Below are positions 5,110 through 49,183 of a stretch of 64,000 nt of DNA, one piece after another (the first letter of the stretch is position 1; the number at the start of each line of letters is the position of its first letter). The translations under genes and the position numbers were made by a program. The stretch is from NCBI RefSeq assembly GCF_019693215.1, contig NZ_CP081183.1, positions 1,181,226 through 1,245,225 on the forward strand. The letters are read 5' to 3'. Under the pieces are notes generated by a model. The model had not been told where the DNA came from, did no database searches, and saw only the letters and a list, made by a program, of their open reading frames with translations. Source of the stretch: Salinarchaeum sp. IM2453. Its GTDB lineage: Archaea; Halobacteriota; Halobacteria; Halobacteriales; Salinarchaeaceae.

Positions 5110-7026
5110 ATGGGCTCTTCAACGGTGGTTGTGATTGGCCGTGATGTTTCTGATGCTACTGTCGCCGCCTTTTCGGAATACGACTTATCCATTGAATGCG
5201 TTGACGATGCTGAATCTGTGACTGGAATTCTTGAGGACAAGCATGGTGCTGTTCTCTGTTCTGTCAATCCAGATACTTCAGTGCCACTCGAAGCTTTCTC
5301 CTTCATTCAAACTGCAAATCTAAACGTTCCCGTCTATCTTGGCATCGACCAATCACAGCAACAATTTGCGGCTGATGCTCTTGAGGCTGGGGCAACGGAC
5401 TATGTTTACTGGTCTGAGCTACAGTCAAATCCTGATCTCCTTGCCCGAAAAATCAGCCTACAAATTGAAGCACATCCCGACTCATCAATCATTTCGGATT
5501 TTAATCGGGAGCTGGTTCAGTCTATCAGGCTTTTCCACGATCTTCAGTCGATATTCGCCAATAGTGATCTCACGACTAATGAACGCCTTGACCGTGCCGT
5601 TGAGACCGCTGCCGAGCGACTAGACTACCCGATTGCATTCGTTTCACGAATTGAGGATGATCAACAAGAGATTATCTCGGCAGCGGGTGACCATGAGTTA
5701 CTGCAGCCCGGAAAAACAGATATGCTAACCCGGGCCTATTGCCGTGAGACAATTAAATTGGATGAAGGCCTTGTCATCAAAGACGCCACAAACGAAGGGT
5801 GGAATGATGATCCAGCTTTTGAGCGATATAACTTGCATTGCTATGTTGGCGCCAAGATTACAGTTGATGACACTGTTTATGGCACTTTTTGTTTTGCAGA
5901 TACCACTCCTCGCCCTGAGCTAATCGTGCAGATACAACAGACAATCGTTGAAACTCTCGCTGAACGAATTAGCATTGAACTCGCTCAGCCGATTGGCCGG
6001 TTCAAAACCGTATTTCAGGGAGCTCCAGATCCGATTATCATTCATACTCCTGACGGAGATATTGTTGAAGTTAACCAACGAGCAACTGAGCAACTGGGAT
6101 ACTCATACGATCAACTTTGCTCGATGAATGTACGAGACATCGAGGTTAATCTCTCTGAAGATGAATTACTAAATATCTGGGATGAATCTGTAGATGGCCG
6201 ACAGATTCTTCGCGGAGAACACAAACGTGCAGACGAATCAACGTATCCTGTCGAAGTTTGGGTCACTTCTGTTGACATTGGGGGTGAAGTGCAATACATT
6301 GCGATTGCCCGAGATATTAGTAAACAAGAAACATACGCTAAACGATTAGAGGAGCAACGTAATAATCTTGAGTTGCTTAATCAAGTAATGCGGCACGATA
6401 TTCGAAATGATTTACAGCTAATTGATGCATATACTTCTGAACTTACCGATCACGTTGATCCGGAGGGAGAAACGTTCCGTAGTATTATTGCAGATGCTGC
6501 CTCCGACTCCATCGCACTTACAAACACTGCACGTGACTTGGCAGCGATGATGCTTGAGTCTGATCCAGAGTTACAGACTATTTCCTTACCTACTATCATC
6601 GAACAGGAGTGTGATGCCGTATCATCAACGTATCCAAATGCAGAAATAACTATTGAGCATCCTATCCCTGGTCAGGATGTCATTGGCTCTGAGATGATTG
6701 ATACCGTCTTTCGTAATATTCTGAGAAATGCGGTCCAACATAATGACAAATCCACCCCTAAGGTTACTGTTACTGGCACTGTAACCATGGGAAAATATGA
6801 CGATGACGTTGTTGAAATTCGCATTCTCGATAATGGTCCTGGAGTCCCCGATTCAAGAAAAGAAGAGATATTCGGTCACGGGGCCCATGGACTCGATAGT
6901 TCCGGAACTGGAATTGGACTTTACTTTGCTGATACTATTATTGAAGACTCACATGGACACGTCTGGGTTGAAGATAGTGGCCAAGAAGGGGCCGTTTTTG
7001 TCGTCCAACTTCCAGTTGCAGATTAA
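5110..7026 (+). CDS. Sensor histidine kinase with receiver-like, GAF and PAS domains
   Basis: Cytosolic 638-residue signal-transduction kinase with no membrane spans. Domain order: a receiver-like N-terminus (about 5-120, ending EAGATDYVYW), a GAF domain (about 150-290), a PAS domain (about 300-415, starting VFQGAPDPIIIHTPDGDIVEVN), a HisKA-type dimerisation helix with the phosphoacceptor His429 (MRHDIRNDLQLI), and a HATPase domain with N-box NILRNAVQHND (about 536), G1 DNGPGVP (about 573) and G2 SSGTGIGLYFAD (about 599). The receiver-like part lacks a clear phospho-Asp context, so it may be a pseudo-receiver. The ATG at 5110 is preferred to a TTG eight codons upstream. The cognate regulator is not nearby; stimulus unknown. 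Confidence 0.9.
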   Translation: MGSSTVVVIGRDVSDATVAAFSEYDLSIECVDDAESVTGILEDKHGAVLCSVNPDTSVPLEAFSFIQTANLNVPVYLGIDQSQQQFAADALEAGATDYVYWSELQSNPDLLARKISLQIEAHPDSSIISDFNRELVQSIRLFHDLQSIFANSDLTTNERLDRAVETAAERLDYPIAFVSRIEDDQQEIISAAGDHELLQPGKTDMLTRAYCRETIKLDEGLVIKDATNEGWNDDPAFERYNLHCYVGAKITVDDTVYGTFCFADTTPRPELIVQIQQTIVETLAERISIELAQPIGRFKTVFQGAPDPIIIHTPDGDIVEVNQRATEQLGYSYDQLCSMNVRDIEVNLSEDELLNIWDESVDGRQILRGEHKRADESTYPVEVWVTSVDIGGEVQYIAIARDISKQETYAKRLEEQRNNLELLNQVMRHDIRNDLQLIDAYTSELTDHVDPEGETFRSIIADAASDSIALTNTARDLAAMMLESDPELQTISLPTIIEQECDAVSSTYPNAEITIEHPIPGQDVIGSEMIDTVFRNILRNAVQHNDKSTPKVTVTGTVTMGKYDDDVVEIRILDNGPGVPDSRKEEIFGHGAHGLDSSGTGIGLYFADTIIEDSHGHVWVEDSGQEGAVFVVQLPVAD

Positions 7027-41405: not shown

Positions 41406-42668
41406 ATGTCGAATCAGGTGGTCACTCGGACACTCAAAGCGAGTATCAGTAACCACTCGCAAGTCAGTGACGACCTCGATTCGCATGGCTTTGCCGCGTC
41501 GAAATTGTGGAACGTCGGGCGATGGACAATTTCGCGTGTCTGGGACGCTATCGGCCACATACCTGATGCCGATGAACTCTGTTCATACCTCAAAACGCAC
41601 GAACGCTATGCAGACCTACACAGCCAATCTAGTCAGCGAGTTCTTCAAGAACTCGGTGAGGCGTTCGTCTCATGGTACGAACAGGACGACCCAGATGCGA
41701 ACGCACCGGGCTACCGCAAACACGGCGACGACCACCCGCGCTCGACAGTGACATGGAAAAATCAGGGCTTCAAACTCGATACGGAGTACAACCGTGTGCG
41801 TCTCTCGAAAGGCACGAACATGAAAGAGTCGCGCTACGCCGCCGACTACATCCTCTGTGAGTACACGCTCCAGACAGCCGACAAGACGCTCGACGCTATT
41901 GAGAGTGTCCAGACGGTGCGTGCTGTCTGGACTGGTGAGACGTGGGAACTCCACTTTGTCTGCAAGATGCGGATTGAGACAGCCGATGCTCCCGGTGAAG
42001 AGACAGCAGGCGTTGACCTTGGCATCTGTAACACGGCGGCTGTCTCTGTCGGTGACGAGACACTGTTGTATCCGGGGAATGCCCTGAAAGAAGATGCTCA
42101 CTACTTCCGACAACAGGAATACGAGACAGAAGGTGAGAATGGCCCGAGCGAGCACGCAGACTGGGCGAGACAGAAGAAATCCCGGCGACAAGAGCATTTC
42201 CTGCACGCAGTGTCGAGAGATATTGTTGAGCAATGTGCTGACCGAGGTGTTGGAAAGATAGCAGTCGGCCACCCGAAGAACATCCGTGACGATGGAGACT
42301 GGGGGAGACACGGGAATAAACGCCTGCACGACTGGGCATTTGAAGCACTGCTCAGCCACATCGAGTACAAAGCTCAAGAGCGTGGCATCGAGGTTGAGCG
42401 AGTAGATGAGTACGAGTTGGCCACGTCGATAACGTGCTGTGAGTGTGGCACGAAAGCCGATTCAAACCGGGTTGAGCGTGGCCTGTACGTCTGTGAGAAC
42501 TGCGAACTGGTGGCAAATAGCGACTTGAACGCGGCAGAGAATATGCGAGCGACGGTAACTCCGAATCCTGAAGAGGATAGGAGTAACGGCTGCTTGGCAC
42601 AGCCATCGGTACGCCTGTTCGACAAATCCACGGGCAGAGTACGCCCACAAGAACAGGTTGTCCCGTAA
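41406..42668 (+). CDS. tnpB: TnpB (IS1341-type RNA-guided nuclease family), copy 1
   Basis: A 420-residue TnpB. RuvC-I is GVDLGICNTAAVS; the RuvC-II position reads IAVGHPKNIRDD, where the usual catalytic acidic residue (E/D in -IEDL- or -VGDL-) is replaced by Gly-His; RuvC-III is ANSDLNAAENMRA. The zinc finger has C-x2-C (CCEC) and C-x2-C (CENC). TnpB uses an RNA from the element's 3' end to cut DNA; no tnpA lies beside it. The C-terminal half is strongly similar to the copy at 47859, while the N-terminal half is more diverged. ATG 41406 (MSNQVVTR) is chosen over an ATG seven codons upstream. Confidence 0.92.
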   Translation: MSNQVVTRTLKASISNHSQVSDDLDSHGFAASKLWNVGRWTISRVWDAIGHIPDADELCSYLKTHERYADLHSQSSQRVLQELGEAFVSWYEQDDPDANAPGYRKHGDDHPRSTVTWKNQGFKLDTEYNRVRLSKGTNMKESRYAADYILCEYTLQTADKTLDAIESVQTVRAVWTGETWELHFVCKMRIETADAPGEETAGVDLGICNTAAVSVGDETLLYPGNALKEDAHYFRQQEYETEGENGPSEHADWARQKKSRRQEHFLHAVSRDIVEQCADRGVGKIAVGHPKNIRDDGDWGRHGNKRLHDWAFEALLSHIEYKAQERGIEVERVDEYELATSITCCECGTKADSNRVERGLYVCENCELVANSDLNAAENMRATVTPNPEEDRSNGCLAQPSVRLFDKSTGRVRPQEQVVP

Positions 42669-42722
42669 ACCGTAATATCCCAACGTGGGAATCCTCGCGC
42701 TTCAGCGCGGGGAGGATGTCAA
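42669..42722 (+). ncRNA. 3' end of tnpB copy 1 element: candidate guide-RNA scaffold
   Basis: After the stop come CCCAACGTGGGA (a small hairpin) and CCTCGCGC-TTCA-GCGCGGGG (42693-42712), then AGGATGTCAAC. In TnpB systems the omega RNA ends at the right end and takes its guide from flanking DNA, here the DNA after about 42720. That it is transcribed is inference from the family. Confidence 0.55.
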
Positions 42723-46239: not shown

Positions 46240-46290
46240 TCGGATTCTATCTTCATACAGCGAGAGAATCCCGCCCTTCTCGTGAGCGAC

Positions 46291-46559
46291 GAGTGTTCCG
46301 ACCTGTCGGAACCGAGGACCGAACAGGGCGGGAGTGACTCGATGGAAACGCTGCTACTCCCCGAGAGCGTGAAACAAGATGTGGGGCGCAAGAGACCGAA
46401 CGCGATTCCGTGCCTCAGAGCACGTGGGAGTGACTGGTCCGTGTGCGAAAGAAGCCGAGTCATGGGCGTTACAGCCCGGATGCCGCGCGGCGCGGCATCC
46501 GGGAAAGCCCGAATAGGTGAATCTCTGCTTCACGCACTGGCGTCCCAGGTGAACAAACC
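46291..46559 (+). ncRNA. Candidate IS110 bridge-RNA region
   Basis: The leader before the transposase is GC-rich and structured: TCCGACCTGTCGGA hairpin near 46299-46312, and an 11-bp perfect stem CGGATGCCGCG/CGCGGCATCCG around 46477-46501. IS110-type elements are known to encode a bridge RNA in the non-coding end that selects target and donor. Location and structure fit, but loop sequences were not checked against the element junctions. Confidence 0.45.
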
Positions 46560-47557
46560 ATGTACCTCGGAATCGACGTCCACAAACGGTACGCACAGGT
46601 GGCAGTAATGGATGAGTCTGGAGAAATCGTCGAAGAGGTTCGCGTCGAGAACGCGAACCTCGATGACCTTGCACAGCGGTACGCTGGCGCACAAGCCGCG
46701 ATAGAGGCGACCAGCAATTACTACCACATCCACGATACGCTGTCGGAGCATTTGGATGTGACTGTTGCTCACCCGAAGGAACTGAACCAGATCGCTGATA
46801 CTGATAAGAAAACTGATCGTGTTGACGCCAAAGAACTCGCGCGGATGGTTCGGTTGAACTCCGTGCCTGAGAGTTATGTTCCGACCGACGAAATAAGGAA
46901 ACCCCGCCCCCTCGTGCGCGGGCGACAGTCGTTAGTCGAACACAGGACAGAGTATGCCAACAAGGTTCACGGCCTCCTCTCTGATCACGGCATCAGCGAA
47001 GATGTGAAGCCGTTGACCCAAGAGGGACGAGAGTTCCTGCGGGAACTCTCGCTCCCGACGCCATGGAAATCGGTGTTGGAGTCATACCTCGAAGTGATTG
47101 AGACGCTCACTGATGAGATACAGAATCTCGAAGAGACAATCGAAGAACGCGTGGGTCTCTGGAGGAGAGCCGGGTGGTGATGACGATTCCTGGTGTGAGT
47201 TACTATACGGCGTTGACGATCTACGCTGAATTAGGCGAGATTGATCGGTTTGACGGTGACAAAGAAGTCATCAGCTACGTCGGGTTGAACCCGGTGATCC
47301 GCGAGTCCGGCGACTCGCGGATCGAAGGTGAACTCTCGAAACGTGGTTCAGGGAGAGTCCGGTGGCTGCTCGTTCAGGCCGCTCATACTGCTGTCCACAC
47401 CTGTAACGACGAGTATCTGAGTCGGTTCTACGAGCGGTTAGCTAGTCGGAAGAACTCACAGAAAGCAATCGTGGCAACAGCTCGAAAGATGCTGGTGTCG
47501 ATGTACCACATGCTTGACCGAGGCGAAGTGTACGACCCACCTGGTGTAAGCGCGTAG
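46560..47557 (+). pseudogene. IS110-family transposase, split by a frameshift
   Basis: The first frame (46560-47180) starts MYLGIDVHKRYAQVAVMDES and holds the RuvC-like DEDD motifs: D in GIDVHK, E in AAIEATSNYY, and DRVDAKELARM. A second frame (to 47557) continues VVMTIPGVSYYTALTIYAELG and RWLLVQAAHTAVHT, the Tnp domain with its catalytic Ser region. Between them, near 47150-47175, the expected reading SLEESRVVMTIPGV lies in the other frame, so a one-base indel breaks the gene. Without a programmed shift it is inactive. Confidence 0.85.
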
Positions 47558-47858
47558 ACGAGGGATCTGAGGGCCGCCGGTCGGGCGGCCCTCAGTGGCT
47601 GGTCGAGGCCCTTCGTGAGCGACTGCTATCGCCAGACAGCGACCGCACCGCATCACGATTGGGACCGCATATCGACTGGGAGAGCAGCAGCCTCCGAGAC
47701 GGCGTAACTATTTTATCGAAAACGGTGGTTTGTGTAGGTAGCAGCGTTTCCATAGGTGAATCGCGTCAACCCCGGTGGAATACCGATACTGGTTCTGCTG
47801 GCCGGATATTCCACACCGAGTTCCAGCTATTAAGTCACTGTACTAACATAGACTGTGT
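47558..47858. other. IS110 3' non-coding end and spacer
   Basis: TGAGGGCCGCC (47568-47578) pairs with GGCGGCCCTCA (47584-47594), a strong 11-bp hairpin just after the transposase stop; it may end transcription. The rest up to the tnpB at 47859 includes the second TCGTGAGCGAC repeat and an AT-rich promoter stretch. Confidence 0.55.
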
Positions 47859-49115
47859 ATGGTGAATCTGGTCACAACACGCACCATTACGGCGGCACTC
47901 ACCAACGACCGTGAGGGTGTTGTCCGTGACCTGGATTCACTCGGTCGTTCTGGGAGTAAAATCTGGAACGTTGCCCGGTGGACCATCGGTCGTATCTGGG
48001 ACCATACCGGAGAAATCACGGACGAAGGACCGCTCAAATCCTACATGAAAAATCAACGGTGCTGGAAAGATTTGAACTCGCAGTCAAGTCAGGCAATTGT
48101 TGAAGAATTGTCTGGCGCTTTCCAGTCATGGTTCGAGCAAGATGACCCAGACGCGAATCCACCGGGCTACCGCAAAGACGGCGATGAGCGACCACGTTCA
48201 ACTGTCACGTTCAAAGAAGACGGCTTCAAACTCGATACAAAACACCAGCAGGTCCGCCTCTCCAAAGGCAAGAACCTCAAAGACGGGTGGGCCGACTTCG
48301 TTCTCTGCGAGTACGACACCGGCCCAGACGAAGACCTGACCGACGTAGAAGACGTACAACAGGTCCGCATCGTCTGGAACGGCGACTGCTGGGAACTGCA
48401 CTTCGTCTGTAAAGTCAGCATTGACGCCGCTGACTCCTCTGGTGAGAAGACGGCAGGTGTTGATCTCGGCATCTGCAACACGGCGGCTGTCTCTGTCGGT
48501 GACGAAACACTGCTGTATCCCGGCAACACGCTGAAAGAAGACGCACACTACTTCCGCCAAGTTGAATACGACACGGAAGGTGAGAACGGCCCCAGTAGCC
48601 ATGCAGAGTGGACTCGACAGAAAAAATCCCGGCGACAAGAGCATTTCCTGCACACAGTGTCAAAAGACATCGTTGAACAATGTGCTGACCGCGATGTTGG
48701 CACGATAGCAGTCGGCCATCCGAAGAATATCCGCGAGGATGAAGATTGGGGGCGGCACGGGAACAAATGCCTCCACGACTGGGCGTTTGAGACACTTCTC
48801 AGTCACATCGAGTACAAAGCCGAAGAACACGGTATCGACGTGGAGCGGGTCGATGAGTACGAGTTAGCCACGTCGATAACCTGGTGTGAGTGTGGCACGA
48901 AAGCCGAGTCAAACCGTGTTGAGCGTGGGTTGTACGTCTGCGATGAGTGTGGGTTGGTGGCGAATAGTGACTGTAATGCGGCTGAGAATATGCGAGCGAC
49001 GGTAACTCCGAGTCCTGCACAGGATAGGAGTAACGGCTGTCTGGCCCAGCCATCGGTTCGCCTGTTCGACAAGCAAACGGGGAGAGTAGCCCCACAAGAA
49101 CAGGTGCGACCGTAG
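47859..49115 (+). CDS. tnpB: TnpB (IS1341-type), copy 2
   Basis: A 418-residue TnpB, starting MVNLVTTRTITAALTND. RuvC-I GVDLGICNTAAVS and RuvC-III ANSDCNAAENMRA are kept; the RuvC-II region again reads IAVGHPKNIRED without the usual acidic residue. The zinc finger differs from copy 1: the first ligand pair is WCEC instead of CCEC, so one canonical Cys is lost. No tnpA beside it. The right end falls at the tail of taw1. Confidence 0.92.
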   Translation: MVNLVTTRTITAALTNDREGVVRDLDSLGRSGSKIWNVARWTIGRIWDHTGEITDEGPLKSYMKNQRCWKDLNSQSSQAIVEELSGAFQSWFEQDDPDANPPGYRKDGDERPRSTVTFKEDGFKLDTKHQQVRLSKGKNLKDGWADFVLCEYDTGPDEDLTDVEDVQQVRIVWNGDCWELHFVCKVSIDAADSSGEKTAGVDLGICNTAAVSVGDETLLYPGNTLKEDAHYFRQVEYDTEGENGPSSHAEWTRQKKSRRQEHFLHTVSKDIVEQCADRDVGTIAVGHPKNIREDEDWGRHGNKCLHDWAFETLLSHIEYKAEEHGIDVERVDEYELATSITWCECGTKAESNRVERGLYVCDECGLVANSDCNAAENMRATVTPSPAQDRSNGCLAQPSVRLFDKQTGRVAPQEQVRP

Positions 49116-49183
49116 ACCGGCAAATATCCCAACGCTTGCGGTGCGGTTCGGGAAGCCCCGTCTTCACGACGGGGAGGAGGTCA
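49116..49183 (+). ncRNA. 3' end of tnpB copy 2 element: candidate guide-RNA scaffold
   Basis: CCCCGTC (49156-49162) pairs with GACGGGG (49168-49174) around TTCAC, followed by AGGAGGTCAC. The general plan equals that after copy 1. The next bases (from about 49184) are the end of taw1, which would then supply the guide. Confidence 0.5.

Follow-up and report, generated by a model that had tools for sequence, protein, structure and literature searches.

The locus studied here raises the question of whether the folded non-coding leader in front of an IS110-type transposase gene in Salinarchaeum sp. IM2453 makes a bridge RNA, and which of the two described arrangements it would follow if it does. 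In the literature, the IS110 group is characterized by an RNA upstream of the gene and short repeats and the IS1111 group by a downstream RNA and long repeats; the order of the target guides is reversed between the groups, a rule given in the seekRNA paper (PMC11187229). The window analysed is a stretch of 64,000 nucleotides, and positions refer to it unless stated otherwise.

The sequence at positions 46335–47756 (forward strand, 1422 bp) identifies an IS110-superfamily element of a haloarchaeal lineage. The genome of 2.66 Mb contains four near-identical copies of it, namely that of the window (L001) and three others (L002, L003 and L004), and their alignment, together with comparison with relatives and the spacing of the subterminal repeats, placed the ends at TGACTCG on the left and CATAGG on the right. 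The sequence common to all four copies opens with TGACTCGATGG at 46335 and closes with CCATAGG, whose last base is 47756. Outside these ends the flanks differ, save for the short target stretch TGAATCGCGTC and, in three of the four copies, the left end of a host TnpB element. All four copies occupy the same site in the same orientation and share the TG core; this core dinucleotide is most likely the TG at 46335–46336, which is repeated in the right flank at 47757–47758. The left subterminal inverted repeat ATGGAAACGCTGCTAC (46342–46357, + strand) is a perfect 16-bp inverted match to 47738–47753 (− strand), the two lying 7 nt inside the left end and 3 nt inside the right end, respectively. As a control, the 7/3-nt rule reproduced the ends of IS4321, IS5075, ISEc11 and ISEc66. 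Such repeats are long (12–18 bp) and conserved across the lineage; the element carries the long subterminal repeats with 7/3-nt extensions characteristic of the IS1111 group.

These ends displace the boundaries 46280–47623 drawn in an earlier note on this DNA, which had taken an 11-base direct repeat, TCGTGAGCGAC, as bracketing the element. The repeat does exist, at 46280–46290 and 47613–47623, but it brackets no element, and as an element boundary or target duplication it was rejected as a chance pair. It is considered incidental because its left copy belongs to host DNA, its right copy lies inside the element, the other three copies lack it and such pairs are frequent by chance: the left copy, situated within the left end of the host TnpB element, reads CGTGAGTGAC and CGTGAGTGGC in L002 and L003 and is absent beside L004, and at least one 11-mer direct repeat occurred in 37% of shuffled 1.7-kb regions. 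Two further observations concern the surroundings of the copies. In L004, at about 140–1500 in the orientation of the transposase, the host TnpB left end is seemingly interrupted again, by about 1.4 kb of inserted DNA with the inverted ends ACAGTAGTTGCCGAA/TTCGGCAACTACTGT, which would make the elements nested. The bridge RNA model described below also gives a fifth match, weaker than the others (L141, genome position C1:553034–553169, E = 3.5e-8), which is followed by a truncated IS110-type start (MYLGVDTHTEYSQVAVVE*) and is a relic of a different element of the family.

The insertion target, a hairpin-bearing sequence, is the left end of an IS1341-type TnpB element. This left end (46250–46334, + strand) is repeated in the genome without the insertion sequence (L005–L011), and its continuation beyond the element (47757–47858, + strand), reaching up to the tnpB start, is homologous in the uninterrupted copy L005. 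The tnpB gene of the interrupted host (47859–49115, + strand; 418 aa; PF07282 and PF01385) is 85% identical to the copy downstream of the empty site in L005. Reading the repeat at 46250–46340 as a TnpB right end or omega RNA was rejected; tnpB lies downstream of it in both L001 and L005, and the repeat is therefore a left end. In Halorientalis salina NEN8, an element with identical guides is inserted in a TnpB left end of this kind, and several other relatives adjoin DDE-type transposase genes; by analogy with IS4321/IS5075, insertion-sequence ends may be common targets of the lineage. In the right flanks of L002 and L003, and also in L011, the same left end of TnpB type continues into another sequence on its right-hand side, which suggests non-autonomous derivatives with this left end in common. 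Two matches to the Rfam family sot0042 (sense overlapping transcript) were seen in the window, of which that at 49000–49175 overlaps the 3′ end of tnpB and is an omega-RNA-like region, and that at 42553–42713 looks like a site of the same kind.

That the gene encodes an IS110-family transposase, as the earlier note had stated, was borne out by the domains found. The N-terminal part (46560–47180, + strand) matches the DEDD/RuvC domain PF01548 (E = 8.7e-19) and the C-terminal part (47174–47557, + strand) matches Transposase_20, PF02371, with the catalytic serine (E = 8.3e-23), the pair that defines the IS110 superfamily. The frame is broken before the C-terminal domain, a defect that the note had missed; the gene is likewise broken in L002 and L003, so that three of the four copies are affected, the window copy by a frameshift. 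L004 encodes an intact recombinase of 332 aa, in which the catalytic residues D, E, D, D and S are conserved in alignment with D11, E60, D102, D105 and S241 of IS621. The nearest solved structures by sequence are the ISCro4 and IS621 transposases. In the transposase tree, ISEc11, IS4321 and ISEc66 form a separate clade (100/100) and the haloarchaeal transposase falls outside it, not clustering with the IS1111 transposases; with its long branches and no outgroup, the tree does not assign the transposase to IS110 or IS1111.

The leader upstream of this gene is structured, as had been claimed: the region 46339–46559 folds at −94.5 kcal/mol (z = −3.3), and none of 200 shuffled sequences was as stable. 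The 11-bp stem reported near 46477–46501 is real and proved to be the inner part of a perfect 13-bp hairpin at 46475–46503 (+ strand), which is supported by folding and by compensatory changes and forms the tip of the donor loop. No Rfam family covers the upstream RNA at the curated gathering threshold. The predicted bridge RNA body, delimited by a covariance model and compensatory changes, comprises 171 nt (46379–46549, + strand) with an outer stem, a target-binding loop and a donor-binding loop. In the target loop, the 5′ guide ACGCGATTC (46400–46408, + strand) is the reverse complement of the right target flank GAATCGCGT and co-varies with the right flank in relatives, and the 3′ guide GGGAGTGAC (46426–46434, + strand) corresponds to the left target flank GGGAG, the core TG and AC, where AC are handshake bases that match the left end of the element. 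In the donor loop, the 5′ guide CGAGTCA (46456–46462, + strand) is the reverse complement of the left end TGACTCG, and the 3′ guide ATAGGTGA (46513–46520, + strand) corresponds to the right end ATAGG, the core TG and a final A that tracks the target. The upstream region contains a single occurrence of each of the four guide words, the downstream region contains none of them, and all four together were found in none of 20,000 shuffled upstream regions. The upstream folded RNA is very probably a programmable bridge RNA whose arrangement mixes the two known types. We hold with high confidence that it is the upstream non-coding region of the element that makes the bridge RNA, the target loop pairing with the halves of the insertion site and the donor loop with the element ends around a TG core.

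Relatives were gathered from 292 genomes of the class plus a named set. Of 73 loci, 55 had ends that the repeat rule could place, with guide information left unused, and the rule failed in the remaining 18; as this rule required TGA at the left end and TG at the right, the constancy of the core is partly built in. Among 51 elements, the guide-flank match was 5.57 against 3.59 in permuted pairings (sd 0.14) for the right flank and 4.73 against 3.93 (sd 0.11) for the left flank, where the permuted pairings remove relatedness among elements only in part. In 21 de-duplicated haloarchaeal RNAs, the target guides vary with the insertion site, one guide scoring 6.62 against 3.15 when shuffled (sd 0.28, maximum 4.57) and the other 4.24 against 2.23 (sd 0.20, maximum 3.10). 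The loop complementarity proposed by the earlier note is thus present in the window copy, at both junction and target DNA, and also in relatives inserted into different sequences. Weak matches on one or both sides were seen in L066, L064, L028, L051 and L052, which could be old insertions, tolerated mismatches or wrongly placed ends; further targets that fit the guides by eye occur in Halorientalis persicus (L112) and Halobellus captivus (L119).

The donor guide tracks the right end of its own element through the variants ATAGG, ATACG, AGAGG, AGGGA and AGCGA. The two internal loops pair, and co-vary, with target and donor. In most elements the donor guide carries, directly after TG, the base found at position three of the target flank (TGA-A, TGC-C, TGT-T, TGG-G), even though the donor's own base after TG is A in every element used. 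Handshake guide pairing has been described for IS621 (PMC11208158), and by analogy the target-tracking base is its signature here. The outer stem, the target-loop hairpin and the donor-loop hairpin are supported by 22 aligned relatives with 87.6% of cells paired, the number of compensatory cells being 71 compared with 20.3 in shuffled alignments (sd 3.8) and 7–16 in slid controls. The 19 aligned sequences used to build a covariance model, R1, included the window copy, whose match of 186.3 bits is that of a training sequence and hence non-independent; the fair test is given by held-out relatives, and these match equally well. Matches to R1 were found in 81 of 292 genomes and in 34 of 77 genera. 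The model found no match at the bacterial reference loci (IS621, ISEc11, IS4321, IS5075, ISEc66 and others), which leaves homology to bacterial bridge RNAs at the RNA level without support. In Halorientalis persicus, L112 bears two bridge RNA copies within about 3 kb (2820–2990, + strand, and 5632–5802, − strand), and L111 of Halorubrum vacuolatum bears a second match (6022–6186) within about 3 kb of the other; these twin copies are possibly paired elements.

The same data bear on two other explanations of the leader. It might do no more than regulate the transposase mRNA, as a 5′ control region or an attenuator, and resemble the flanks by chance, as would suit its strong folding and its position directly upstream of the gene; yet its loops change with the insertion site and with the element ends across relatives, and the chance of all four guide words occurring in it is below 1 in 20,000, which makes this explanation very improbable. 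Equally hard to sustain is the proposal that the protein chooses the target, by recognizing a motif in transposon ends together with the subterminal inverted repeats, and that the RNA is a relic. The long subterminal repeats are indeed conserved and several targets adjoin genes of other insertion sequences, but the insertion sites of closely related transposases (83–91% identical to the reference) are unrelated in sequence, and each site matches the loop of the element's own RNA (L001, L018, L019, L020, L026 and L038).

The downstream non-coding region, which the earlier note had overlooked together with the 16-bp subterminal repeat, is about 200 nt long. Directly 3′ of the stop codon lies a terminator-like hairpin (47567–47595, + strand), conserved with compensatory changes, and further on an archaeal promoter-like element (BRE/TATA-like, CGTAACTATTTTAT; 47703–47716, + strand) pointing out of the right end; it belongs to a (C)GAA..TAT block that is conserved in relatives about 45–55 nt before the right end. 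A guide RNA in this 3′ region as in classical IS1111, with the 5′ region secondary, is scarcely credible and was rejected, for although the region is folded (z = −2.3) and the element shows IS1111-type ends and guide order, the region's flank match among 51 elements is no better than in permuted pairings (z = 1.4 and 0.5), it contains none of the four guide words, and its conservation is limited to the post-stop hairpin, a short GTGAGC-type block and the promoter-like block. The RNA location expected of the IS1111 group is therefore not that of this element. In a circular form of the element, the promoter-like block would transcribe into the bridge RNA, and the bacterial junction promoter likewise points into the bridge RNA. 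In the integrated window copy, the block at 47703–47716 faces tnpB about 140 bp downstream, and the insertion might thereby drive tnpB transcription.

With the upstream bridge RNA as the preferred reading, a course of transposition can be proposed. Ends, loops, pairing, co-variation and target identity are all taken from sequence comparison, and the steps that follow are inferred. The element would excise as a circle, transcription from the right-end promoter would cross the junction of the two ends and take in both the bridge RNA and the recombinase gene, and the recombinase-RNA complex would insert the circle at matching sites without duplication of target bases. The guides here are programmed for the left end that is conserved among IS1341-type TnpB elements, which is why the element sits inside them. 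The window copy, its recombinase being frameshifted, would need protein from an intact copy.

The lineage is present in about a quarter of the sampled haloarchaeal genomes, and its many natural reprogramming events and halophilic proteins supply material on which guide rules can be tested, as well as candidate recombinases for use in salt-loving hosts. In the window, one RNA-guided element is programmed against the left end of another RNA-guided kind, TnpB, and relatives adjoin other insertion sequences. A search of open-access papers turned up none that deals with an archaeal bridge RNA, and priority is not claimed.

Compared with known systems, the element resembles IS621 and the IS110 group (PMC11208160, PMC11208158) in its upstream RNA of about 170–177 nt, located at the left end, with the target loop 5′ and the donor loop 3′, and it resembles IS621 in its dinucleotide core, its handshake bases and its DEDD plus Transposase_20 recombinase with the same catalytic residues. 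Unlike IS621, it has a long right non-coding end, repeats of 12–18 bp (2–3 bp in IS621), a TG core (CT in IS621) and a guide order in which the right flank comes first, reversed relative to the transposase gene; the left-first order and very short repeats of the IS110 group are not found. With the IS1111 group (ISEc11, IS4321/IS5075, ISPa11 and ISKpn4; PMC11187229) it shares the long repeats with extensions of 7 nt on the left and 3 nt on the right, the right (top-strand complement) guide preceding the left guide in the RNA, and insertion into the ends of other mobile elements, as IS4321/IS5075 do in Tn21-type repeats. Unlike that group, it has the RNA upstream of the gene and a transposase only about 24–28% identical that lies outside the bacterial IS1111 clade. 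This mixed architecture, not recognized in the earlier note, unites, as read from the sequence, ends of IS1111 type and a guide order starting with the right flank with an upstream RNA of IS110 type, and it separates RNA location, guide order and repeat length, traits that are joined in the described groups. A few IS1111-type elements with an upstream or double non-coding region are mentioned in PMC11187229, where the exception in RNA location has already been noticed; the passages on upstream-region elements do not give pairing and order.

Whereas the RNA is upstream in all haloarchaeal elements examined, its position varies in non-haloarchaeal archaeal relatives from the same phylum (L162–L175; about 33–46% identical), which likewise show right-first order and subterminal inverted repeats and whose ends are mostly TGA.. 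and ..AGG or GGA. The RNA is upstream in L162, L171, L172 and L174 and downstream in L165, L166, L170, L173 and L175. Short guide matches occur in some of them, for example on the right side in L165, L166 and L170; the contig of L171 has no right flank. Upstream- and downstream-RNA elements fall within one supported archaeal clade (96/95), whose internal branching the tree does not resolve, and the presence of both locations in it implies that the RNA has changed sides of the gene at least once. We consider it likely that this archaeal lineage of the IS110 superfamily breaks the two-group scheme, combining IS1111-type ends and right-first order with a bridge RNA at either end, so that guide order follows the ends and the recombinase and not the RNA location. 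If true, this would directly support the proposal that the RNA moves from one end to the other.
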